From the NCBI RefSeq assembly GCF_001068775.1, contig NZ_JWAJ01000079.1, forward strand, positions 1-32,889: 32,889 bases of DNA. The letters are read 5' to 3'. Below, in pieces: positions 21,107-32,889 of the stretch. Source of the DNA: Streptococcus pseudopneumoniae (GTDB taxonomy: Bacteria > Bacillota > Bacilli > Lactobacillales > Streptococcaceae). Each line of letters starts with the position of its first letter. Position 1 is the first letter of the stretch. Below the pieces are notes generated by a model that did not search any database, was not told the DNA's origin, and saw only the letters and a program-made list of their open reading frames with translations. The translations under genes were made by a program, and so were the position numbers.

Positions 21107-21290
21107 AAAAAGAACCGTGTCATTGCTCCTAAGTCAAGTGACCTAGGGGCGTCAGAAACGCGGTTCCACCCTAATTTATTACTTCATTATTTATAAAAAA
21201 TATACCAAAAGCGCCACACTCATCTCTCAATCACCTGGCTCTCACTACCACAGGCTCGCTTAGGATTTACTGATAAGATATTCTTTCTTG
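21107..21290 (-). promoter_or_regulatory. Glycine T-box riboswitch with terminator
   Basis: The leader of glyQS contains the T-box sequence AGGGTGGAACCGCG (21159-21172) inside a competing terminator: GGAACCGCGTTTCTGACGCC pairs with a later CACGGTTC arm, with CCTAGGTC/GACTTAGG at the tip, followed by a T run. A GGC in GTGGCGCTTTTGG (21213-21215) near the 3' side of stem I is the likely glycine specifier codon. Uncharged tRNA-Gly would favour the antiterminator and transcription of glyQ-glyS. Confidence 0.93.
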
Positions 21291-21535: not shown

Positions 21536-22723
21536 TCAACTTTGGCAGGAATTTGGTAGGTAAATTGATAATCCAAGATTATCTAAACTGTTTGTAATCT
21601 CTTCTGAAATTGTTGAATCACCTGAATAATACCAGTGACTATATGTATTCAACGTGGTTGACTTATCAGCGTGTCCTAATCGATATGAAACATATAAAGT
21701 ATCCTTATGTAACACATTTATAAGATAAGATGCATGACTATGTCTTAATCCTTTCCCCGTAATTTCTGGTACACCAGTAATCTTAGCATGCCTTTTTATT
21801 ATCCTAGAAATTGTAGACTTACACAAGGGGGCACCAAAACGTGATATTACATAATCTTTATCATCATTCTTGATTTGAACTTCTCGCCATTTTTTAAGTG
21901 TTGTAATCGTAAAATCATCTAAATCAATTTTACGATTCCCTGCTACTGTCTTTGTTTGTTGTTTAGCATACCATACACCGTTTTTATCTTTCTCAATCGT
22001 CGAATGAACATGAATCCATTTACGTTCAAAATCAATATCTTCCCATTTAAGAGCAATACCCTCACTAACTCTTAAACCAGTCATAAAATATAACCAGATC
22101 GTCATGTAATTATGGAGTCCCTCATACTCACTAATATCAAAAGAGTTTATTACCTTCTTAAATTCATCAAATGTCCAAAATTTTGTATCAGGGTGCTTTC
22201 CTCTAGGATTATCTAATCCTTTAAAAGGAACTCTATCAATATAACCCAATCTTTCTGCATAGCCCAGACATGCTTTAAATCTAGACCACATATTTTTAGC
22301 ATAGTTACTAGAATACTTGTCTATAATAGCTAAGCGAAATCTTTCACAGTCAATAGTACTAATATCTGATAATTTTTTACTACCAAATTGCTTAATAAAT
22401 AACTGATGATGTGGTAAAGCGGTCTGATAAGTTACAAATTGAACTTTTTGTTGATAATATTTTAAATAAATCTCTTCCATAAACTCTCTAAAAGTTAGAA
22501 AACTATTATTAATAGTAGAGTTCACAAATTCATGTTTTAAACGAAGTATCTCTTCATATGCTTCCTTAAAAGAATTAAACGGTAGTCCCTGTTGATTTTT
22601 CCTTCCTTTCTTTTGAATTCTTTTCCCAGTTATTGGATCAACTCCTAATTCAATTTGAAAATAAATTTTTCCTTTTGAATCTTTGTATACACCTTTATAT
22701 TTCTTTGTCTTTGATATAACCAT
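21536..22723 (-). CDS. Tyrosine site-specific integrase
   Basis: This 395-residue integrase has an N-terminal arm-binding region (KYKGVYKDSKGKIYFQIELG), a SAM-like core-binding domain (about 95-180) and a C-terminal catalytic domain. Catalytic residues visible are Arg in MTGLRVSEGIAL, His-x-x-Arg in GKGLRHSHASYL, His in LGHADKST and Tyr in LNTYSHWY. It is related to integrases of Tn916-like and phage-like streptococcal elements. The ATG at 22723 has AGAAGGTGAG upstream. It overlaps the preceding DUF3173 frame by 29 nt, so the two are coupled. Confidence 0.92.
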   Translation of the reverse strand: MVISKTKKYKGVYKDSKGKIYFQIELGVDPITGKRIQKKGRKNQQGLPFNSFKEAYEEILRLKHEFVNSTINNSFLTFREFMEEIYLKYYQQKVQFVTYQTALPHHQLFIKQFGSKKLSDISTIDCERFRLAIIDKYSSNYAKNMWSRFKACLGYAERLGYIDRVPFKGLDNPRGKHPDTKFWTFDEFKKVINSFDISEYEGLHNYMTIWLYFMTGLRVSEGIALKWEDIDFERKWIHVHSTIEKDKNGVWYAKQQTKTVAGNRKIDLDDFTITTLKKWREVQIKNDDKDYVISRFGAPLCKSTISRIIKRHAKITGVPEITGKGLRHSHASYLINVLHKDTLYVSYRLGHADKSTTLNTYSHWYYSGDSTISEEITNSLDNLGLSIYLPNSCQS

Positions 22724-22964
22724 TTTTCTCACCTTCTATATCTGAAAAAGAAATACCAATTAAATTTTCTACAATATTTTTAGGAGCAATGCCTAACCTT
22801 TTATTATCGAAAGGTGAACATCCTAATTGTACCGCATTCTTATCATTTTTTCTAGCTTCTTCAAACTTTTTTACAGCAATCTTTTTTGCTTGTCTAATAA
22901 TATTTCTCGATGTGTGCTCTGGAAAACCAATCGCAACTAAATCTTTATAGTTTACTGTTTCCAT
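22695..22964 (-). CDS. DUF3173 family protein (integrase partner)
   Basis: This small basic protein of about 89 residues has YKDLVAIGFPEHTSRNIIRQ at the N-terminus and FDNKRLGIAPKNIVENLIGI, the pattern of DUF3173. Such proteins lie directly before integrase genes in many streptococcal mobile elements and may act in excision, though this is not established. A Lys-rich insert EEARKNDKNAVQLGC lies between the blocks. The frame is open to an ATG at 23003 without a ribosome binding site; I prefer ATG 22964 (GGAAG upstream). Confidence 0.8.
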   Translation of the reverse strand: METVNYKDLVAIGFPEHTSRNIIRQAKKIAVKKFEEARKNDKNAVQLGCSPFDNKRLGIAPKNIVENLIGISFSDIEGEKNGYIKDKEI

Positions 22965-23076
22965 GATTTTACTACTTCCTTTCTTAGATTTTTTCACCTC
23001 CATGGCATGACTGATGAAGTCATCATAAGAATTACACTTACTGCTCTTTTACGGTGGCAGCCTGAACGGTCAGAAG

Positions 23077-23101
23077 TATCATTGTATATCATTTGTATCA
23101 T
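23077..23101. repeat. Three phased TATCAT repeats upstream of the DUF3173-integrase pair
   Basis: TATCAT occurs at 23077, 23087 and 23096, about one helical turn apart, in the gap before DUF3173. Phased short repeats beside an integrase operon could be binding sites for a regulator, Xis or integrase arm domain. The rest of the gap (23004-23232) has a small ATGACT/AGTCAT inverted repeat near 23005-23024 and no convincing gene. Confidence 0.35.
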
Positions 23102-23232: not shown

Positions 23233-23271
23233 AATCTCCTCATTTTCACACTCTATGAAATTGAGGAGATT
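23233..23271 (-). terminator. Terminator of the XRE regulator gene
   Basis: AATCTCCTCA/TGAGGAGATT hairpin overlapping the stop codon, followed on the minus strand by a six-T run. Confidence 0.85.
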
Positions 23272-23491
23272 ATTTTCCAAAGCGAATTTTATCAGGAAAA
23301 TCTGTCAATCCCAATAGGTAGTCTGTACTGACATCGTAAAAGTTTGAGAGAGTTACCAATACATCTGCCGTTAAGGCATGCTCACCCCGCTCAATTTTAG
23401 CATAAGCTGAGTTTGTAAACGAAAGTATTTTAGCTATTTGTTTTTGGGTCAAATCGTGATCTTCCCTCAAATCTCTCAAACGTCTGTACAT
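23270..23491 (-). CDS. XRE-family (Cro/CI-type) repressor
   Basis: This 73-residue protein is almost entirely a helix-turn-helix: RLRDLREDHDLTQKQIAKIL, SFTNSAYAKIERGEHALTAD, then VLVTLSNFYDVSTDYLLGLTD. Small XRE proteins of this kind control integrase and excision genes at the edge of mobile elements. It has a good ribosome binding site (CAGGAGA) and its own terminator. A perfect palindrome just upstream of its -35 box is a likely operator. Confidence 0.9.
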   Translation of the reverse strand: MYRRLRDLREDHDLTQKQIAKILSFTNSAYAKIERGEHALTADVLVTLSNFYDVSTDYLLGLTDFPDKIRFGK

Positions 23492-24185: not shown

Positions 24186-25397
24186 TCAACTTCTATCATA
24201 CCTCTTCAATAGCGTGCTGAATATTAGCGATAATACCGTAATAGATACACCAATAATAAAAATATTAAAAGTATTGTTAGGATTTAAAACTACTGAGAAA
24301 AAAACAGTACCTAGTGGCATAAAAAGGATCGCTACTGAAAAGATAATTCCAAAGACTCTGCCAAGAAACTCATTATCTACATCTCTTTGAACAATAGAGA
24401 AAAATTGGATATTAAAAATGGAAAGAAATAGACTAAATAACGCTGGAGAAAAAATTAGGATAATGAGGTTATGGAATATAAAATAAAGCGGTGCAGTTAG
24501 CATTAACATTAAGCCTGAACACGCTGAAAGGCGAAGCAAACGTCTACTTGACAAAGATCTATTGACAAAACTACTTAATATCGATCCCAAAAAACCACCA
24601 ATTGCTTGCGCTGTTAGAAAGCTTCCATAAAGTCTATCTGAAATTCCTTCAAACATTTGACTACTATAAGGTAATAATAAATTATAGGCTGCTAGAACAA
24701 AATTAACCAAAGCAGAAAGAATGATAATAATAAAGATTGGTTTATGGCTATAAACATACTTGAATCCTACTTTTAAGTCGTTAAAGACTCCACTTATTGT
24801 CATTTCCTCCTTTGTATCTACTTCTTCATTCACAGGTGTAACAAATAAAATCAATAAAGCTGCCATTAGAAAGGATAATCCATCCAATAATAGCACCCCC
24901 CGCACCCCTAGAATGTTGTACAAGAAGATTGCTACCATAGGAATCGTTACTTTTATTACAGTACTCGTTGTTTCTAATAGTGAATTTAGTTTGGAAATAC
25001 TATCTTCTTTTACGACTTCTTTCGTAAAAGCCTTGTAGGACGGTCCTGAAAATGCGCTCATAAAAGCCAATATGACATTTGTGATAACAATCGCATAAAC
25101 TAACCATTGTTCTTTAGAGATTAATGATAGAACTATGCAAGCGATCCCAGATAAGAAATTTGTTCCAATGATAATTTTTTTCCGCTTAAAACTATCTGCA
25201 ATGACTCCACCGAATAAATTGAATAGAACCCCGATCACCTTTTCTAATGATTGATAAATGGCAACCAACGATAAAGATGTTGGATTTAGTCCGGCCAGAA
25301 AGGTATTATTAGCGAAGTCAAACATGATATCTCCGATTTTAGATACCCCTTTACTCATGACAAGATAACTTATATTCTTTGTTTTTTTATTTTCCAT
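24186..25397 (-). CDS. MFS exporter (EntS/MFS_3-like)
   Basis: This 403-residue protein has about 12 hydrophobic segments. A motif-A-like loop follows helix 2 (GGVIADSFKRKKIII). The middle cytoplasmic loop (about 190-210) has NEEVDTKEEMT, and there is a late DVDNEFLGRVFGI. This subfamily includes exporters of siderophores and macrolides (EntS, MefA type). It lies downstream of the biosynthetic operon, after a terminator and a 424-nt gap, on the same strand, and may export the product or give self-resistance. Its own promoter was not identified. Confidence 0.82.
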   Translation of the reverse strand: MENKKTKNISYLVMSKGVSKIGDIMFDFANNTFLAGLNPTSLSLVAIYQSLEKVIGVLFNLFGGVIADSFKRKKIIIGTNFLSGIACIVLSLISKEQWLVYAIVITNVILAFMSAFSGPSYKAFTKEVVKEDSISKLNSLLETTSTVIKVTIPMVAIFLYNILGVRGVLLLDGLSFLMAALLILFVTPVNEEVDTKEEMTISGVFNDLKVGFKYVYSHKPIFIIIILSALVNFVLAAYNLLLPYSSQMFEGISDRLYGSFLTAQAIGGFLGSILSSFVNRSLSSRRLLRLSACSGLMLMLTAPLYFIFHNLIILIFSPALFSLFLSIFNIQFFSIVQRDVDNEFLGRVFGIIFSVAILFMPLGTVFFSVVLNPNNTFNIFIIGVSITVLSLIFSTLLKRYDRS

Positions 25398-25510
25398 TAA
25401 TATTACCTCATATTATCTTTTTCAGGTCCTCCATTAGCAATGTCTAAATGCTACCACAATTTGTATAAGGCACTATTTAATTTCATCATAGTTTAACAAT
25501 AAAAGTATAT

Positions 25511-25675
25511 CTACAACCTATCATTACCATTATTAGTGTTATAAGACACCTTAAATAATGGTTGAAAGAAACTATGAAATAACTTTGAAAGTATCACTCC
25601 TTCAAAAGAGCCTTTAAAACCCAAAAATTCTAAGGATGGAAATGTTGATTTATCCACTTTTATAGAATCTGATTT
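25511..25675 (-). pseudogene. 54-codon open frame without a start, possible gene remnant
   Basis: Between two stops the minus strand reads KSDSIKVDKSTFPSLEFLGF and on to FHSFFQPLFKVSYNTNNGN. The composition looks protein-like, but there is no start codon or ribosome binding site and I cannot place the family. It lies in the gap between the exporter and the operon terminator, otherwise empty (25398-25821). Confidence 0.3.
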
Positions 25676-25686
25676 TTATAAAAATA

Positions 25687-25703
25687 GGAGTTTTTAAAAC
25701 TCC
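25687..25703 (-). terminator. Terminator of the biosynthetic operon
   Basis: Palindrome GGAGTTTTTAAAACTCC followed on the minus strand by TATTTTTAT, 119 nt past the last operon stop. Confidence 0.65.
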
Positions 25704-25821
25704 ATCATGAAATATCTGTATTACCAACTAACTTCACCAAGTAATTGAACTAAATTCTCTCGTATCTATTAAAAATGTAATATTCTTAATCTTATGCAGA
25801 TAAAAAATTAGACTCTAACTA

Positions 25822-27036
25822 CTAAGTAGTAAACCATGTATCAGTAATAGTTTCCGACCAATCAATTGACTTACTATAAAAATTCTTTATATCCATTGCT
25901 TTTTGAAGAAGTTCATCCAAATTCTTCCCAAAAAAGCTAACAGTTAATAAGTAATCCATCTGTTTCTGTAATCCAGCAAAGCGAACATTTTCATATTGTT
26001 TAATTTGTATCTCTATAATCCCATCCAAATCCAATATTGGAATAGACTTCACATATCCCTTTTGTGCCGGTATCCATACTTTCCCAGAAAGCCTAACACT
26101 TGAAGTGTTGCCTATATTATAAGGAATGCCTAACTCTCTTTTTACCAAATATTCATCCAAATTAATTGAGAATGATTTAATAATATTTTTTGTATATTCA
26201 CCCCCTACAAGCCTACTTCCAATCTCACAGAGTATTGGATTACCAGATTTATCAATAAATATTTCTGCATGAAAAATCGTATTATAATCAACTTCAAATT
26301 TTTTAAAAATCTCTGCAGTATAATTTTTTAATAACTTGTCTTCATTCGAGTCAATATCAAGCATTATTGAACCAAGACCAAATCCCTCTTCAAATGCTTC
26401 TAAACAATTTTTGACATACATACTACAACAAGAAAACTCTATCAATTGACCGTTAAAAAATCCGTCAACATGATATAGCTGTCCACTCACATACTCTTCA
26501 ACCAAGTAATCATCTAGCGAAATATTATAAAGAACATCTGACAATGAATCTTTATTTTCAATTTTAATAACACCTTTTGAAGCCCATTTTTTTCTTGGTT
26601 TCAAAATCACAGGATACCCAAATTGTTCACAGAAAGACACAACATCCATAAAGTGATCTACTTTTCTAAATTTAGGAGTTTTAAAACCTTCTTTAGAAAG
26701 TTTTTTCCGCATGAGATATTTATCTCTAAACAATAGTGCTTCTTCAAGTGTTTGACCTTTTATTCCCAAATTTTTTCGTATACAAGCAGCTCGAATAATA
26801 CTACCTTCTTCAAATGCTAAAATTTTTGTAACAGGATCGATTTTATTTAATTCATAAATAAATTGCTCAACATTTCCGTTAGTCTCAAATTCAGGAAAAC
26901 CTATAGCCTTATCATAAGAAAAACTATTTATCGTTTCGAGATAGCCCAAGATATATACCTCTTGTTCAAAATCATTTAACCATTTTAAATAATTATGCTT
27001 AGACTTACCTTCACGATCAATAATCACTACAGACAT
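25822..27036 (-). CDS. ATP-grasp ligase (amino acid or peptide ligase type), first of two
   Basis: This 404-residue protein has the ATP-grasp plan. N-terminal Rossmann-like domain, residues 1-95. Lid and ATP-binding region: LLFRDKYLMRKKLSKEGFKT (101-120) and YPVILKPRKKWASKGVIKIE (141-160), with the phosphate-binding Lys and Gly-rich loop. Adenine-binding hinge: DYLVEEYVSG (176-185). Metal-binding end: IFHAEIFIDKSGNPILCEIGSRLVGG (254-279). Such enzymes join a carboxylate, activated as acyl-phosphate, to an amine, as in BacD-type dipeptide ligases. The usual Asn in the ExN metal motif appears as Gly-Ser (CEIGSR), a variant of amino acid ligases. It follows the second ATP-grasp gene by 19 nt and is the last gene of the operon. 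Confidence 0.82.
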   Translation of the reverse strand: MSVVIIDREGKSKHNYLKWLNDFEQEVYILGYLETINSFSYDKAIGFPEFETNGNVEQFIYELNKIDPVTKILAFEEGSIIRAACIRKNLGIKGQTLEEALLFRDKYLMRKKLSKEGFKTPKFRKVDHFMDVVSFCEQFGYPVILKPRKKWASKGVIKIENKDSLSDVLYNISLDDYLVEEYVSGQLYHVDGFFNGQLIEFSCCSMYVKNCLEAFEEGFGLGSIMLDIDSNEDKLLKNYTAEIFKKFEVDYNTIFHAEIFIDKSGNPILCEIGSRLVGGEYTKNIIKSFSINLDEYLVKRELGIPYNIGNTSSVRLSGKVWIPAQKGYVKSIPILDLDGIIEIQIKQYENVRFAGLQKQMDYLLTVSFFGKNLDELLQKAMDIKNFYSKSIDWSETITDTWFTT

Positions 27037-27055
27037 ATTTCACCTCCAAAATTGA

Positions 27056-28249
27056 CTATTCATACAGTACTTCAATACAGGAATTCAATGTCTTTTCTCT
27101 ACCTGAGATTAACTCATTGTAATCGTTTGAAGTTTTTATCACATGACCAATCCTATTTGAGCTACCTATTTCTCTCCTCTTATCCCCCGCTTTAACATAT
27201 AATTCAGTAGCGATAATATCCTCATGATTTTCAATATAGTGATCATCTAAAGTAACTGTTTTAATTACTTCACCTTCAAATTCCTCAAAATAAATGGCTA
27301 TAAATTTAGAAGAAAAGACAAAATGATCAAAATCATTTAAAAGTTGAGCAGATGATAGGGCTGCTATCTCTATAGGATTATGGTTTATACTAATATTTCT
27401 ATATAATTCCGAAATCATACCTCCACCTAATCTAAAGTGAGTTTCGACAACATGAATCTCTTGATTGTTTGTGATAATTATCTCTGTATGAGTTGGACCA
27501 TTTGTAACCTTCAAAATTGATAGTAGTTTCCCCATATAGTTGTTAATTATATCTTTTAAATCAGTCGAAATATTAGCAGGTACAATATGGCCAATCTCAA
27601 CAAATGTTTCAAGATTTTTTAATTTTTTTGTTATACCATAAATATGATGCTGACTATTTACGCTTATAGCCTCTATACTAAATTCTTCACCTTCAATAAA
27701 TTTTTCAATTATAAACGTTTCATCTGAAATCTCTACTTGATTCACTATTTCCTTCACATTTGATGAATCAACTTTATAGATTGATCGACTCCCAGTGCCA
27801 TCTATCGGTTTTAAGATTGATGTGCCATTTTTGTTGACAAATCTTATCACATCATCTCTATTCTCAATCATTTCACAGTTAACGTTGTCAAACAATGAAT
27901 TTTTCAAGTAAGTTCTCAATGCATACTTATTATTTATAACCATCATTTGAGTTTCATTGATATTAAAAGGTATCTTTGTTTTTTCAGCTATTTTGTATGC
28001 TAATGCTTGTAAACTTTCAAACATACAAATTATCGATTGATAGTCTCCTAAATATTCAACAGCCTTACTTACTGTCTCAATAATTTGAACTTCGTTTTTA
28101 AAACTGTTAAAGGCAAGAACTTCATCATAAAGATCTTTAAAATATGGTTTTATCTTCGAAGATTCACAAACCAATGTTAACTTACAATTATTTTTTTTAA
28201 GTGCTCTGTGTATTTCAGAGAAACCACCAATAACAAGTATTTTAGACAT
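27056..28249 (-). CDS. ATP-grasp ligase, second of two
   Basis: This 397-residue ATP-grasp protein is clearly diverged from its neighbour. N-terminal Rossmann domain, 1-95 (KILVIGGFSEIHRALKKNNC). Then MMVINNKYALRTYLK (102-116), TSILKPIDGTGSRSIYKV (143-160), TFIIEKFIEGEEFSIEAISV (178-197) and THTEIIITNNQEIHVVETHFRLGGGM (253-278), where Glu and His replace the usual Glu-x-Asn. It resembles carboxylate-amine ligases of the CarB/BacD/PurK group. Its start overlaps the AlaRS-like gene by 8 nt with GGAG upstream. Two distinct ligases suggest a product with at least two amide-type bonds, or one peptide and one side-chain bond. Confidence 0.82.
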   Translation of the reverse strand: MSKILVIGGFSEIHRALKKNNCKLTLVCESSKIKPYFKDLYDEVLAFNSFKNEVQIIETVSKAVEYLGDYQSIICMFESLQALAYKIAEKTKIPFNINETQMMVINNKYALRTYLKNSLFDNVNCEMIENRDDVIRFVNKNGTSILKPIDGTGSRSIYKVDSSNVKEIVNQVEISDETFIIEKFIEGEEFSIEAISVNSQHHIYGITKKLKNLETFVEIGHIVPANISTDLKDIINNYMGKLLSILKVTNGPTHTEIIITNNQEIHVVETHFRLGGGMISELYRNISINHNPIEIAALSSAQLLNDFDHFVFSSKFIAIYFEEFEGEVIKTVTLDDHYIENHEDIIATELYVKAGDKRREIGSSNRIGHVIKTSNDYNELISGREKTLNSCIEVLYE

Positions 28250-29465
28250 TTTTTTCTCCTAATAGTTCATCAATATCTACAAGTCTATTATCGTTCCCTA
28301 AGGCTAAACTTCGAATAGAATTCCGTTTTTTAATTTCTATATGAATACCTCTATCCTTGAGAATATCAGAATATTTTGCTACTATCCATTCAGGAAATAT
28401 TCCGTATTCACCTTTTAGTTTTCTAAAATCAATAGAATTAACCTCTTGATTCCTAAGCATGTTTTCAACTTTATTCAATCTCTTAGCTATGTCAATAGAG
28501 AAATAATTTATTTTTTCTATACTTTCCTCAATCTGTCTCTTCTGCTGAATGTTCAAATCAATATAACCTAAACTGTGAACAAGATTAGAAGATAAGTCAA
28601 CTAATTTTTTCTTTGATAAATTGGAGATAGTTTTTGAGTCTAATAAAAAAGCTAATTCACGTATAATTTTTTTCAAAAAATACCCCTGTTTTTTATTTGA
28701 AATTTCTCCTATTCCACCATGGATTAATAAAACTAAAACTCTAAAAAGTAAAACAAATCTATTAACATTTAAAAAATCAATAGGCAATGATGACACAACC
28801 GGCAACAAAAAATTAATTTCGGAAATTCCCCAGATTGATTCTTTTTCTTCTAGAATCATTGCTAAACGTTCTGCATAAAAAACTACATCAAAATGGTAGT
28901 TTCCATCTCTATATATAGTTGCAATTGTTCCGAACGGAACTACACCATTAAGATACTTGTAATATAAGTAAGAGTAATTACCTGTAGGTCTCTGTTTTCC
29001 TATATGAAATTTCTCAATATTTTTCCATTCATATATATTTTCAGATGGTATTCCTGTTTTTATGTACCATCTGCGAAACTCTAATTCTTTATCACATCGT
29101 ACATATATACGGTGTGTAAATAAACCAATGCTTTGCAAAAAAGCTAAAGCATGATAAATCATCTCTTCCGGTTCTTTGCAATTCTTAACTAGAAATGATA
29201 AGCCAACCTCCATCGGATTAGTCAATCTATTAATACCGACGCCATCTAATTTATTTGAAAAATATGATAGCTGTTTTGTTACATATTTTTCCACGCAGCC
29301 AGTTTCAGATAGCATATCAAACAAACTAATATGCTCTGAAATAGCAGACATATTAAAGATAGTCTCTGACCCTCTAGGTCTAACAACTTTACCTTCTTGT
29401 AGTTTTCGAAATCCATTTTCTTGACCATAAAAATAAAACTGTTTGATAATTTCAATTACGTCCAT
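28242..29465 (-). CDS. Stand-alone alanyl-tRNA-synthetase-core homologue
   Basis: This 407-residue protein follows the catalytic and middle domains of AlaRS in order. Residues 8-45 match the motif 1 region (GQENGFRKLQEGKVVRPRGS). Residues 64-92 match the motif 2 region (KQLSYFSNKLDGVGINRLTN). Residues 119-165 match the segment with GIPSENIYEW and HIGKQRPTGNYSYLYY. Residues 193-212 match motif 3 (DVVFYAERLAMILEEKES). Residues 241-275 match the helical RALVFLIADG...GRGYVLRRI block (FRVLVLLIHGGIGEISNKKQ). Residues near 340-365 match AlaRS YDTYGFP (YGIFPEWIVAK). The editing and C-terminal domains are absent. The motif 2 Arg that contacts ATP seems replaced (Phe69 by my alignment). It may activate an amino acid for a ligase, or aminoacylate a carrier or tRNA for biosynthesis; it is not the housekeeping enzyme. 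Confidence 0.72.
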   Translation of the reverse strand: MDVIEIIKQFYFYGQENGFRKLQEGKVVRPRGSETIFNMSAISEHISLFDMLSETGCVEKYVTKQLSYFSNKLDGVGINRLTNPMEVGLSFLVKNCKEPEEMIYHALAFLQSIGLFTHRIYVRCDKELEFRRWYIKTGIPSENIYEWKNIEKFHIGKQRPTGNYSYLYYKYLNGVVPFGTIATIYRDGNYHFDVVFYAERLAMILEEKESIWGISEINFLLPVVSSLPIDFLNVNRFVLLFRVLVLLIHGGIGEISNKKQGYFLKKIIRELAFLLDSKTISNLSKKKLVDLSSNLVHSLGYIDLNIQQKRQIEESIEKINYFSIDIAKRLNKVENMLRNQEVNSIDFRKLKGEYGIFPEWIVAKYSDILKDRGIHIEIKKRNSIRSLALGNDNRLVDIDELLGEKNV

Positions 29466-30009
29466 TTTTTTCTCTCATTAATTGGACATAGCCCTTTGTT
29501 TCTATTTTTGAATTTAAAAACGAGAACTCTCCGCACATTTTCTCATAAAAATTATTATAATCTTCTTTTGAAAAATCTCCTAAAATCTCTATTTCAAGAT
29601 AAAATCCAAGACCATCAATCTGATCTAGATTAATCGTTTTATTTTCTAATACGTCATGATAAGTCTTTCTATATTTACTTATTGTGAAAATATTTGAAAA
29701 ACCATCTTGCAAGATATTCCTTACAAATTCTAGTTTTTCAGATTCCAACTCTATTTCACTTTCACTCCACATTCCTTGTTTTATCGTATCTTTTCTTGTG
29801 AAAACACATGCCTTATCATCAGCTTCTTGACGAATTCTGTAAATAAAGCTACCTACCTCATCATTTTCAAATTCTCTTCCTTTTGTTTTAAAATATTCAT
29901 CAACTTGCTTATTTTCACACTTAAATTTATAAGATTTTTCTAAATATGAAATAGCATTATTATAATCCCTCTCATCGTTAAGTTCAAATCTAACTTCTAA
30001 TTCATTCAT
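29452..30009 (-). CDS. CYTH-domain protein (class IV adenylate cyclase / triphosphatase fold)
   Basis: This 185-residue protein matches the CYTH tunnel fold. It starts NELEVRFEL, a variant of the ExExK signature with Arg in place of Lys (Glu3, Glu5, Arg7). Then come IYRIRQEADDKACVFTRKDT, ESEIELES, KYRKTYHDV and NLDQIDGLGFYLEIEILG, with the alternating charged residues that line the tunnel. CYTH enzymes bind triphosphate compounds through two metals: CyaB-type cyclases, thiamine triphosphatase, polyphosphatases. Here it is translationally coupled to a radical SAM gene upstream and the AlaRS-like gene downstream (8- and 14-nt overlaps), so it probably acts on a nucleotide or phosphorylated intermediate of the pathway. 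Confidence 0.82.
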   Translation of the reverse strand: MNELEVRFELNDERDYNNAISYLEKSYKFKCENKQVDEYFKTKGREFENDEVGSFIYRIRQEADDKACVFTRKDTIKQGMWSESEIELESEKLEFVRNILQDGFSNIFTISKYRKTYHDVLENKTINLDQIDGLGFYLEIEILGDFSKEDYNNFYEKMCGEFSFLNSKIETKGYVQLMREKNGRN

Positions 30010-30982
30010 TAATTTTACCTCTCAATTCTTCAAAGGCTGAAGTCTCTTTAAATTCACTCAGTCTATAGTAAGTTTCTGGTGATGTTTTATGGACACAAAG
30101 CCTAATATTGTAATTACCAAGCAAATTTTCTAATCGTATTCCATAAAAATATTCACCACATCTGCCCTTTTCCCTAATTCTACAACATTTACACATATCG
30201 TGCAAGTAGTTTGGAATCAGTATTTTAAATCCCACTTCACCAATATTAGGAACATTATAAAAAATAGTTCCAGATGAACTTCCTTTGATATATTTCCTAC
30301 TTATTTCAATACCATTTAACGAATCAAAAAAATTTCTAATCGCACTAATAGATTTTTCATTGCTTTCAACTTCGTTTAAGATTCTTATGGCAATGTTGCG
30401 GCTACTAGCCCACTTCATCACTTCATAAGCTCTACCGAAATCTTCAGAGCTGGCTACAACAGTATTTATCTTTACAGGAACTCCTTTTCTACTTACATAT
30501 TCTATTAGTTCTTTTAACTTCCGATGATTTTGCTCTACCCATCTATTAGAACGATTAACTTGAGTGTTGTACATTTCAACCGTATCTACCGCATGTAAAC
30601 TAAAATTAATTCCATCTATTCCCGAAGATATTATCTTATCAAAAACCTCCTTTTTACCTCCAATTGAGGTCATCTTAACAACAAAATTATATTCTTTCAA
30701 TTTTTTAATAATTAAGTCAATATCTGGATGTAAACTAGGCTCACCACCTGTCAAATGTACCTCAGTAATATTTAAGGAATCTGTTAGATCAATAAAATCA
30801 TTAAAAAATTTATCATTGAAAAAATCAATATTTTTTATTAATCTTTGTTCCCTACTACCTGTTCCTTCATTATGACACCACCAGCAGTTCCAATTACAGT
30901 TATCTGTCAGCTTTACCCTAATACTATTCAATGGAGTATATACGGAATCTTTTCTAGGTTTTATAAACTCTAATACACTCAT
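30002..30982 (-). CDS. MoaA-like radical SAM enzyme
   Basis: This 326-residue radical SAM protein carries the cluster-binding CxxxCxxC as CNWNCWWC (Cys29, Cys33, Cys36), the SAM-binding HLTGGEPSLHPD (76-87), and conserved strands with GINFSLHAVD and VPVKINTVVA. The C-terminal third has several Cys (CKCCRIREKGRCGEYFYGIR, then NIRLCVHK), which suggests a second iron-sulfur cluster as in MoaA. The substrate is unknown; the context argues for a peptide or small-molecule modifier rather than molybdopterin synthesis. Start at ATG 30982 with GGGGTGG 5 nt upstream; the GTG nine bases earlier overlaps that site. Confidence 0.88.
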   Translation of the reverse strand: MSVLEFIKPRKDSVYTPLNSIRVKLTDNCNWNCWWCHNEGTGSREQRLIKNIDFFNDKFFNDFIDLTDSLNITEVHLTGGEPSLHPDIDLIIKKLKEYNFVVKMTSIGGKKEVFDKIISSGIDGINFSLHAVDTVEMYNTQVNRSNRWVEQNHRKLKELIEYVSRKGVPVKINTVVASSEDFGRAYEVMKWASSRNIAIRILNEVESNEKSISAIRNFFDSLNGIEISRKYIKGSSSGTIFYNVPNIGEVGFKILIPNYLHDMCKCCRIREKGRCGEYFYGIRLENLLGNYNIRLCVHKTSPETYYRLSEFKETSAFEELRGKINE

Positions 30983-31002
30983 TACAACCACCCCAGTTCT
31001 AG

Positions 31003-31024
31003 TGAATATCTTTTTCGATATTCA
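31003..31024 (-). promoter_or_regulatory. Hairpin before the radical SAM gene
   Basis: Perfect inverted repeat TGAATATC/GATATTCA with a 6-nt loop, 20 nt upstream of the radical SAM start codon. It has no T run, so it is not a standard terminator. It may be a processing or stability element between the short ORF and the enzyme genes. Confidence 0.45.
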
Positions 31025-31078
31025 AACATGTAACTCTAAATACTATAATTCCTTAACAGAACCCTAACTAAAAATTGT

Positions 31079-31168
31079 TTAATCAAAATAATTCTTCAAA
31101 TCCAGTTTTTCAAGACTTATTTCTATACTAAAACAACATCTTCCCAGAACTTCAATAATTTCTTCATG
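31079..31168 (-). other. Overlapping -1 frame that would give a 29-residue precursor-like peptide
   Basis: Relative to the 14-codon ORF, the -1 frame is open for 29 codons and reads IIEVLGRCCFSIEISLEK followed by LDLKNYFD and a stop. It lacks a start codon of its own. A single base gained in the AAGAAA run after ATG, or a -1 slip there, would give MKKIIEVLGRCCFSIEISLE and onward to the same stop. The sense-like composition and adjacent Cys pair make it a plausible frame-disrupted or frameshift-expressed precursor. Confidence 0.35.
31123..31167 (-). CDS. 14-codon ORF with strong ribosome binding site at the head of the biosynthetic operon
   Basis: The ATG at 31167 is preceded by AAGGAGGATTAATC, one of the best ribosome binding sites in the island, and encodes MKKLLKFWEDVVLV before a stop. 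It is the first ORF after the predicted operon promoter and lies next to the rgg-type regulator, where streptococcal peptide pheromones and RiPP precursors are often found. Its first seven residues equal those of the SHP pheromone at 32616-32687, but MKKLLKF is a common start and the codons differ. It could be a signal peptide gene, a leader peptide, or the start of a longer precursor read in another frame. Confidence 0.5.
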   Translation of the reverse strand: MKKLLKFWEDVVLV

Positions 31169-31186
31169 ATTAATCCTCCTTGATTA

Positions 31187-31250
31187 TAAAAACTATTAGG
31201 CCTACTGCCTAATGTTATTATATCACTAGCAGTTGGTCTAATAGTTTTTA
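31187..31250 (-). promoter_or_regulatory. Biosynthetic operon promoter inside a long inverted repeat
   Basis: An extended -10 box TGATATAAT (31217-31225, minus strand) has no good -35 box, suggesting activator dependence. It is centred within inverted arms AAAAACTATTAGGCC (31188-31202) and GGTCTAATAGTTTTT (31235-31249), which pair at 14 of 15 positions. The inner arm can alternatively pair with GCCTAAT (31207-31213). A likely operator region for the adjacent Rgg-type regulator. Confidence 0.6.
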
Positions 31251-31264
31251 TCCCTAATTTGCAA

Positions 31265-32122
31265 TTAGTTACTATTAAGTACTCTCTCAATATATTTTTC
31301 CCATCTATCTACTAAACTCATGCTTTCCAAGGTTTTCAGAAAGCCAATACACTTTCTCATCTCTAAAATATTACTCAATTCATTTGTCATCTTAAAATTG
31401 TAACAACTATCTATGAGGTGAAAAACTAATCTTTCATATAATTCTGTTTCATCAAAAAATAACTGGACTAATTGTTCTCTATAATAAGATGCATCAACTA
31501 TATTATTTCTTTCTACGCTGAGGCTAAAAGCATTAAATAACATGCTGGTAATTAATCTTCTATGGGTCGGTAAATGTTTATAAAAATCAGTTCTCCTCAC
31601 CATTTCCTTCGTTAATATCATAATACTTGATTGGCAAAAAATTTCCATTGTGGAGGAAAATAGCTCTAATTCATATTCACCCCAGATATCTATGCTGAAT
31701 AAATAGTCTGATATAAAATCAATTTCTTCAGAAGTCACAATATTATCTTTCTCAATTTCTTGGAGCTTTAACTTAATCAAAATTATTGTTAATTTCTTAC
31801 TTAGTTTCTCCTCTTCCTTTTCTATACAATTAATTAGGAGTCTTCTCAAGGCTGGGCTGTTGTTCTTATAAAAATAATTATTTATCTTATCAATTACCTC
31901 GAAATTACTCATCTTATGAAAACCACGCCCTAAATACATAAACTCTTCTAAAGATACGTCCAGTGTCTTTAAAACTGAAAGTAATTTACTAAGAGTAATA
32001 TCTGTATATCCATTTTCAAATCTAGATAACTGAGAGGTAGAAATCTCATCATTAGCAATATTATAAAGAGAGAGGCCCTTAGCTTCTCGAATTTTTTTTA
32101 AGATTTGTCCTAAATTTTTCAT
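31265..32122 (-). CDS. Rgg/GadR/MutR-family transcriptional regulator
   Basis: This 285-residue regulator has an N-terminal XRE helix-turn-helix (LGQILKKIREAKGLSLYNIA and STSQLSRFENGYTDITLSKL, residues 4-45), then FMYLGRGF and a long all-helical region (about 70-285) typical of the peptide-binding repeat domain of Rgg proteins. The DNA-binding helix is close to that of Rgg2/Rgg3. Rgg proteins bind short imported peptides and switch nearby genes on or off. It has a strong ribosome binding site (AAGGAGAGGAAGC). It lies directly upstream of, and on the same strand as, the operon it probably controls. Confidence 0.88.
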   Translation of the reverse strand: MKNLGQILKKIREAKGLSLYNIANDEISTSQLSRFENGYTDITLSKLLSVLKTLDVSLEEFMYLGRGFHKMSNFEVIDKINNYFYKNNSPALRRLLINCIEKEEEKLSKKLTIILIKLKLQEIEKDNIVTSEEIDFISDYLFSIDIWGEYELELFSSTMEIFCQSSIMILTKEMVRRTDFYKHLPTHRRLITSMLFNAFSLSVERNNIVDASYYREQLVQLFFDETELYERLVFHLIDSCYNFKMTNELSNILEMRKCIGFLKTLESMSLVDRWEKYIERVLNSN

Positions 32123-32309: not shown

Positions 32310-32574
32310 TTCATTTATTAGTCGTTAAAAGCTTGTCTTTTTCCTACTTTTGTTCCTAATATACCTTTATATGATAAATATCTGCAAGTTACCAATCTGA
32401 ACGCTTAGAAATATATTCTTTGTAGTGTCTTACTTGAGATTCGTAACTGTTTTTCTAATTCTCACTATCGGAACTAACTTTGCAATAAGTAACAACCCTT
32501 TTTAGGTGTCTTCTATGTCTCTTAGACGAACTAAATAACCAGCTTTTATTATTTGTGATAATAACTTCTTGCAT
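32310..32574 (-). pseudogene. Decayed large serine recombinase (N-terminal resolvase domain)
   Basis: The frame starts with ATG 32574 and reaches a stop at 32455 after KRVVTYCKVSSDSEN. In frame beyond the stop come NSYESQVRHYKEYISKRSDW and LADIY, and after a frame change GTKVGKRQAFND. This is the order of the resolvase domain of ICE-type serine integrases (AAYCRVSTDSEEQ..SYEAQ..HYTEYI, then W..AGIYADEG.SGT..K.R..F). At least three disablements and loss of the rest of the gene make it a relic of another mobile element. The remaining gap to rgg (32123-32309) holds only the promoter above. Confidence 0.75.
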
Positions 32575-32615: not shown

Positions 32616-32687
32616 TCAACCTCCGACTATAATGATAATATCCATAATCAATAACAATATTGATGTAAATTTTAAAAGTTTTTTCAT
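32616..32687 (-). CDS. shp: Short hydrophobic peptide pheromone precursor (SHP)
   Basis: A 23-residue ORF starts at ATG 32687 with GGGAGG upstream. It begins MKKLLKFTSILLLIM and ends DIIIIVGG. The positively charged start, hydrophobic core and C-terminal Asp-hydrophobic-Val-Gly-Gly match streptococcal SHP2/SHP3 precursors; DIIIIVGG is the known mature S. pyogenes SHP3. SHPs are exported, trimmed by the Eep protease, imported by the Ami/Opp permease and sensed by Rgg2/Rgg3. It diverges from a partial rgg gene, the usual arrangement. Confidence 0.88.
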   Translation of the reverse strand: MKKLLKFTSILLLIMDIIIIVGG

Positions 32688-32734: not shown

Positions 32735-32756
32735 TCCTTGTAATTTTGTTGGGAAT

Positions 32757-32889
32757 ATGGGAAAAATGAAATCAAAACTTGGTATAACACTCAGAAAAAT
32801 TCGAAAAGGGAAGAAAATAAGTTTAAGTTCAATTGCTGATAGTAATTTATCTAAATCTCAAATCTCTAGATTTGAACGGGGAGAATCAG
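32757..32889 (+). CDS. rgg: Rgg2/Rgg3-type regulator, partial at window end
   Basis: The first 44 codons of an Rgg regulator are visible: [20 protein letters not shown], then [18 protein letters not shown], which is close to the helix-turn-helix of S. pyogenes Rgg2/Rgg3 and contains the [12 protein letters not shown] block. Two in-frame ATGs are possible, 32757 and 32766; neither has a clearly better ribosome binding site. It diverges from the shp gene, making a complete-looking quorum-sensing pair. The peptide-binding region lies outside the window. Confidence 0.88.

Follow-up and report, generated by a model that had tools for sequence, protein, structure and literature searches.

A conserved five-enzyme operon beside an Rgg/SHP pheromone pair on a likely mobile island of Streptococcus pseudopneumoniae

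The window analyzed here, a 32,889-nt stretch of DNA that is the entire contig NZ_JWAJ01000079.1 (C13) of Streptococcus pseudopneumoniae assembly GCF_001068775.1, contains five minus-strand enzyme genes in the order radical S-adenosylmethionine (SAM) enzyme (rSAM), CYTH enzyme, alanyl-tRNA synthetase (AlaRS)-like protein (AlaL), and the two ATP-grasp ligases AGa and AGb (Table 1). The genes overlap by 8 nt (rSAM/CYTH), 14 nt (CYTH/AlaL), and 8 nt (AlaL/AGa), and AGa and AGb are separated by a 19-nt gap, in agreement with a first-pass annotation that had described a tightly coupled biosynthetic-type gene set without a nonribosomal peptide synthetase (NRPS). This five-enzyme operon is real and conserved. 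A major facilitator superfamily (MFS) exporter gene follows downstream of a terminator-like hairpin and is probably transcribed separately. With a probability of roughly 0.4, the operon is a pheromone-controlled, NRPS-free pathway to a secreted aminoacylated nucleotide or nucleoside, for which we infer the following chemistry. The MoaA-like rSAM would act on a nucleoside triphosphate, the CYTH enzyme would then cleave or cyclize the triphosphate, AlaL would transfer an amino acid from aminoacyl-tRNA onto the product, the two ligases would add further amino acids in a presumed order, and the MFS pump would export the result; the pheromone DIIIIVGG, acting via the regulator Rgg2, would switch the operon on. 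No description of the combination of rSAM, CYTH, AlaL, and ATP-grasp enzymes was found in the literature searched, which did not cover subscription papers or outside preprints, in line with the earlier statement that the combination is not known in streptococci.

Profile searches of each protein against Pfam, as the first-pass annotation had proposed, backed the radical SAM, CYTH, ATP-grasp, and MFS assignments and fell below the cut-off for AlaL alone. AlaRS headed the structure matches to the predicted fold of AlaL, ahead of HisZ and of other synthetases of class II. AlaL is not a canonical AlaRS, as indicated by its scores (alaS, 22.9 versus 457.05 bits; tRNA-synt_2c, 23.4 versus 30.3), its length of 407 residues, and the Phe69 at its motif-2 Arg position, which is likewise Phe in 7/7 close relatives. 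The Asn of the EIWN position is also missing, the motif-3 D/E/R residues are kept, and the model is weak at motifs 1 and 2. Because the motif-2 Arg position is occupied by Phe69, aminoacyl-tRNA-dependent transfer fits AlaL better than the amino acid activation earlier ascribed to it, which is the less probable of the two; by analogy, charged tRNA is the likely source of the amino acid that AlaL transfers. Like AcmF-type transferases, AlaL has only aminoacylation and tRNA-recognition domains. AcmF, from ascamycin biosynthesis in Streptomyces, takes alanine from Ala-tRNA (PMC12945691). By the features given in the available text of that report, AcmF resembles AlaL in being an AlaRS-like protein cut to catalytic and tRNA-recognition domains; it has lost ATP-site residues, as AlaL may in part have done, and it belongs to a nucleoside pathway (PMC12945691). 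The two differ in their neighbors, which for AcmF are a complete second AlaRS (AcmD) and the hydrolase AcmE and for AlaL are two ATP-grasp ligases, rSAM, CYTH, and MFS. A separate AlaL-like gene (L064:8474-9664, minus strand) has no ATP-grasp neighbors and adjoins a Polysacc_synt_2 epimerase gene.

Among solved structures, the predicted fold of rSAM was nearest to the nucleotide enzyme MoaA, and the fold and three basic residues are common to both; a literature search on the roles of the MoaA residues gave nothing. In NCBIfam, MoaA models scored 81 to 97 bits, the highest (archaeal MoaA) remaining below the GTP 3',8-cyclase equivalog cut-off of 325.25 bits. The viperin model, which has a cut-off of 180 bits, scored 51.3. 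These scores, together with the absence of PADLOC matches at 1e-5 for CYTH, AlaL, the ligases, and MFS, and with ligases and an exporter that do not suit such a role, make a viperin-like antiviral role for rSAM, and with it a phage defense function of the operon, very improbable. The CYTH protein is a triphosphate-tunnel enzyme with an ExExR variant, seen in the alignment, of ExExK, the signature motif of CYTH enzymes, and it scored below the CyaB (class IV adenylate cyclase) equivalog cut-off (50.9 versus 57.95 bits). In f22, a family of the Bacilli, rSAM and CYTH occur together without AlaL: the two genes were adjacent in 5/8 loci, fused in 1/8, and unpaired in 2/8; 8 of 9 places were included in this tally (G502:C21 was left out), and CYTH was recognized by Pfam in L051 and L057 and by alignment in four others. 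Its recurrence away from the ligases, in one case in fused form, makes the pair a defined enzymology question by itself. The fusion, of 551 residues (L057:1165-2820, minus strand; also L036), lies near a gene resembling, by eye, an XRE-TPR regulator; its contig, of 24,676 bases, is in the viral collection too. In total, rSAM relatives occurred at 17 loci of the viral collection, with L034 to L036 aligning over most of the query; genes were listed for L034 and L036. The rSAM of the viral contig L034 (L034:8004-8963) is 36% identical to that of the window and directly follows a gene resembling, again by eye, a thymidylate kinase gene.

For both AGa and AGb, the nearest Protein Data Bank (PDB) entries were L-amino acid ligases. 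This, the retained motif-3 residues of AlaL, and the want of any gene that is certainly nucleoside specific would suit a modified amino acid or short peptide as product, with AlaL adenylating, the ATP-grasp enzymes ligating dipeptides as BacD does, rSAM tailoring an amino acid, and CYTH removing phosphate. Such a scheme is unlikely, because the motif-2 Arg is missing from all seven close AlaL relatives, rSAM is nearest to a nucleotide enzyme, and a triphosphate-tunnel enzyme would have no obvious place in it. The ATP-grasp fold and ligase family are shared with BacD-type ligases, but here two ligases stand with an AlaRS-like partner and score far below the BacD dipeptide ligase equivalog cut-off (25.8 and 43.5 versus 850 bits). 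AGb also matched proteins annotated as NikS (27% identity over 82%), a similarity that is generic to L-amino acid ligases and qualifies the comparison with the nikkomycin and polyoxin pathways. NikS is an ATP-grasp ligase, and NikO is a further enzyme of this chemistry. Neither pathway is known to include an AlaRS-like or CYTH protein. One sister cassette of the operon, of an HTH-EPSP type described below, carries an EPSP-synthase-family enzyme, which adds to the likeness. According to the available text of PMC5365060, these pathways share with the operon a nucleotide-modifying radical SAM enzyme (PolH) and ATP-grasp peptide ligation. Overall, the operon most resembles a nucleoside pathway that depends on aminoacyl-tRNA and extends its product with ATP-grasp ligases, and its assignment to any one known family would be tentative.

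The first-pass annotation overlooked an shp gene and a divergent rgg2 gene at the right edge of the window. Both the divergent arrangement and the product of shp, a short hydrophobic peptide (SHP) with an acidic residue, are those of Rgg/SHP pairs. A genome search placed residues 1 to 44 of Rgg2 at C13:32757-32888 and residues 55 to 285 at the start of another contig of the same genome (C24); the window fragment is 100% identical to residues 1 to 44 of Rgg2 of the streptococcal genome M334 (L002:5852-6709). Letter for letter, the predicted mature pheromone, DIIIIVGG, agrees with SHP939 of pneumococcus and SHP3 of S. pyogenes (PMC5597970, PMC13361665). As far as the available text of these reports goes, the pneumococcal Rgg0939/SHP and S. 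pyogenes Rgg2/Rgg3 systems are alike with the window in this predicted pheromone and in having rgg beside shp, but their targets are capsule-like and qim genes, whereas the predicted target in the window is an enzyme operon (PMC5597970, PMC13361665). We infer that DIIIIVGG induces the operon. Full-length Rgg2 of M334 is 72 to 75% identical to the Rgg proteins beside two decayed operon copies, L017 and L065, of a genus taken as Staphylococcus. In the same place as shp, L017 and L065 have shp-like genes (MDVIIIVGG and MDIIIIVGG, respectively), both with open reading frames (ORFs) extending past the usual end. Both have an upstream box, TTTTCCCAT(A/T)TTCCCAACAAAA, and the box TTTTCCCATATTCCCAACAAAA of the window, conserved in the alignment with L017 and L065, is a candidate Rgg2 operator; in L016, a third decayed copy from the same genus, neither Rgg2 nor shp was seen. 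Because the pair thus adjoins two of the three decayed Staphylococcus copies, Rgg2/SHP appears, from these sequences, to travel with the operon. A second shp copy in the window's own genome (L113:1-300; G000:C58) is decayed, with a nonsense codon after MKKLLKFT, and the accompanying Rgg N terminus is 93% identical to Rgg2; as this copy makes the region a repeat, it may explain why the window contig ends at rgg2. The contig with the remainder of Rgg2 bears another Rgg gene and an SHP-like ORF, MKKYYQIFLLLFDIIIIIGLYQ (L114:11624-11692, minus strand).

Exporter and peptide-sensing control, both claimed earlier, were thus supported, but the regulator then named, Rgg1, is probably a later insertion. 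Rgg1 is 26% identical to Rgg2, with its nearest relatives at 37 to 41%, and only in the window and M334 does it separate shp from rSAM, together with a broken recombinase remnant; the two were probably inserted together. In M334, an additional A within an A-run puts the rgg1 frame (L002:7343-8201) out of register, through either a real change or a sequencing error. A divergent SHP gene of the EGIIVIGVG or EGIIIIGVG type was found beside at least 3 of 14 Rgg1-relative loci with a crude ORF filter. In the window, Rgg1, which comes with a promoter-like site of its own and a near-perfect dyad, may have assumed part of the control. The dyad is terminator-like for rgg1 and a possible Rgg1 operator; it can stop transcripts that start at shp or rgg1, which may leave the operon partly dependent on Rgg1. 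The whole scan gave 50 promoter-like sites versus 52.4 in shuffles, i.e., no excess, and 4 terminator-like sites versus 2.0, so the sites described here are candidates only.

A 14-codon mini-ORF with a strong ribosome-binding site precedes rSAM, its DNA the same in M334. It could be a substrate if the operon made a ribosomally synthesized and posttranslationally modified peptide (RiPP), with rSAM modifying the peptide and the ligases elongating it, and streptococcal radical SAM-RiPP (RaS-RiPP) clusters such as that of streptide do combine a radical SAM enzyme and an exporter under Rgg/SHP control in the available text of PMC13361665. These clusters differ from the operon, in which no precursor peptide was found, rSAM is MoaA-like, and AlaRS-like, CYTH, and ATP-grasp enzymes are additional. 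Apart from shp, no small ORF was common across genera in the AGb-MFS gap of four loci or in the gap upstream of rSAM in the window, M334, L016, L017, and L065, which speaks against the modified small peptide suggested in the first-pass annotation. The mini-ORF has no counterpart in the L016 and L017 gaps upstream of rSAM, and a 48-codon GTG ORF in the AGb-MFS gap was not found even in M334. Moreover, the 329 residues of rSAM leave scant space for an N-terminal leader-binding domain, and CYTH and AlaL would be left without a role, so that a RiPP origin is quite improbable. As a candidate conserved pheromone or precursor, the mini-ORF was also rejected, being unmatched among short ORFs (crude filter) near the 14 Rgg1 relatives.

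Close AlaL relatives are few. The first protein search, which scored the 7,995 candidates sharing most words (the third scored 7,997; relatives may be missed), yielded nine proteins with 37 to 97% identity, the named sources being Staphylococcus, Enterococcus cecorum, Leptotrichia, and Bacillus, and a profile search (7,997 candidates scored) extended these by three Tumebacillus proteins and by others at greater distance. AlaL or a remnant was present in 8 of 284 Streptococcus genomes; 25 matched at 1e-10, from which 17 counted as true AlaRS were left out (frames of 873 to 926 residues, match within profile positions 193 to 377). The rSAM-type operon was intact in 2/284, the window's own genome and M334. 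Among 84 genomes of the genus taken as Staphylococcus, three matched AlaL at 1e-20 (L016, L017, and L065), each decayed differently and all three with a broken rSAM. The genes therefore co-occur outside the window, together in M334 and as remnants in Staphylococcus, and the lack of co-occurrence that the first-pass annotation had allowed for was not observed. With the own genome included, AlaL matches numbered 7/398 genomes in the class (1e-3) and 3/395 in the order (1e-20). In Leptotrichia sp. OH3620_COT-345, AlaL and rSAM are each listed on an 87,430-base contig, probably the same one. AlaL and Rgg1 had no relatives in the viral collection, AlaL was unmatched in phages, and AlaL, CYTH, and the AlaL of L087 were unmatched in the plasmid collection. 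The ATP-grasp matches in plasmids (133 and 58 records) were generic, and three regions inspected had no AlaRS-like gene in their incomplete annotation; a 412-residue Sulfobacillus plasmid protein, tried as an AlaL relative, did not match AlaL.

Twelve loci had an intact AlaL (window, L002 [M334], L016, L018, L019, L020, L021, L064, L086, L087, L088, and L089), not all independent, since the window and M334 are near-identical, as are L087 and L088. Two ATP-grasp genes were present in 10/12, the exceptions being L016, where the cluster is decayed, and L064, and an MFS gene was nearby in 7/12. The second ligase of L018, L086, L087, and L089 was recognized by BLAST to AGb and not by the Pfam cut-off, and that of L088 is in two pieces on either side of masked sequence, the locus containing 872 N. 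The recurrence of the exporter and the lack of any glycosyltransferase or polymer gene in the operon make modification of the cell surface or of a cofactor, in place of a secreted compound, an improbable function of the operon. That role would have parallels in S. pyogenes (qim) and pneumococcus, whose DIIIIVGG-type regulons drive surface-carbohydrate genes in the available text of PMC13059722 and PMC5597970, and would suit the epimerase neighbor of the L064 gene.

The front ends of these loci varied. The window and M334 have rSAM-CYTH; L018 (G111:C17) has phosphoenolpyruvate (PEP)-utilizer and PPDK_N genes plus, by eye, an ABC transporter; and L087 has an HTH-EPSP_synthase fusion and GSCFA (Pfam), with counterparts 60 to 66% identical in L086 and 99 to 100% identical in L088. 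A 76-residue GSCFA remnant was found in L089, and no front end was apparent in Tumebacillus L019 to L021. No description of the HTH-EPSP_synthase/GSCFA/AlaL/ATP-grasp/MFS cassette of L086, L087, and L088 was found in the literature searched. The L018 MFS protein is 77% identical to that of the window, yet its AlaL and ligases are only 24 to 31% identical, which suggests exchange of the pump. A broader proposal, tentative and rather doubtful, is that AlaL, as a tRNA-using relic of AlaRS, makes up with two ATP-grasp ligases and MFS a mobile “aminoacylate, extend, export” cassette that can be exchanged behind varied nucleotide- or PEP-chemistry front ends (rSAM-CYTH, PEP-utilizer/PPDK, and HTH-EPSP synthase plus GSCFA), a new class of natural-product machinery of Bacillota. 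Here it would be induced by DIIIIVGG, and pneumococci as well as other streptococci might then trigger the product or be its targets.

The operon island is likely mobile, in line with its earlier placement on a mobile island: it is an integrase-bearing, low-GC element, with a GC content of 27 to 33% in island genes versus 40% in the left flank. That flank is ordinary chromosome (glyQ, glyS, NADH oxidase, era, and RNase R), and the integrase and DUF3173 genes sit between it and the cargo genes. The integrase is on the window contig; contig C24, which carries the remainder of Rgg2, also encodes a relaxase with 98% identity to its M334 counterpart. In M334, the relaxase, the operon, and another integrase are all on one contig. 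Because C24 backbone proteins recur at 74 to 99% identity beside the EPSP-synthase-type cassettes of L087 and L088, one element family appears to carry different cassettes. Another streptococcal genome (L090; G1012) has the same integrase (99%) and DUF3173 (100%) with an AlaL fragment only, the cargo seemingly lost. Rfam matches included a pemK RNA motif directly upstream of DUF3173 and the integrase (window 23023-23085, minus strand) and the SpR19 small RNA between the integrase and glyQ (window 21150-21270, minus strand).

Table 1. Features of the window, by position
Feature	Position	Strand	Evidence or remark
Tyrosine integrase	21536..22732	-	Phage_integrase 1.5e-22; 99% identical in L090
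DUF3173 protein adjoining integrase	22695..23003	-	PF11372 5.2e-22; 100% in L090
Small XRE regulator of element	23270..23491	-	HTH_3 8e-14; near-identical start in M334
MFS exporter	24186..25397	-	MFS_1 6.5e-27; 77-80% identical in L018, L017, L065
Terminator-like hairpin 3' of ligases	25687..25703	-	terminator scan
AGb, ATP-grasp amino-acid ligase	25822..27036	-	ATP-grasp_4 3.2e-11; L-amino acid ligase 4wd3 3.7e-15
AGa, ATP-grasp amino-acid ligase	27056..28249	-	ATP-grasp_4 8.7e-18; L-amino acid ligase 3vot 1.7e-13
AlaL, truncated AlaRS-like, catalytic and tRNA-recognition domains only, 407 aa	28242..29465	-	
CYTH (triphosphate-tunnel) enzyme, ExExR variant of ExExK	29452..30009	-	CYTH 6.7e-10
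rSAM, MoaA-like, CX3CX2C and C-terminal cysteines, 329 residues	30002..30991	-	
14-codon mini-ORF MKKLLKFWEDVVLV with strong ribosome-binding site	31123..31167	-	
Near-perfect 64-nt dyad	31187..31250	-	predicted hairpin -25.8 kcal/mol; overlaps promoter-like site
Rgg1	31265..32122	-	Rgg_C 2.4e-47
Broken recombinase remnant between shp and rgg1	32340..32520 (approximate)	-	read by eye
shp, 23-residue pheromone precursor MKKLLKFTSILLLIMDIIIIVGG	32616..32687	-	
Conserved box TTTTCCCATATTCCCAACAAAA between Rgg2 and shp	32744..32765	-	alignment of window, L017, L065
Rgg2, N-terminal 44 residues, cut by contig end	32757..32889	+	

If the proposed pathway is true, streptococci carry an undescribed family of NRPS-free cassettes that would channel charged tRNA into small-molecule synthesis, under the control of a pheromone common to pneumococcus and S. 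pyogenes, and AcmF-type chemistry would gain a second home.

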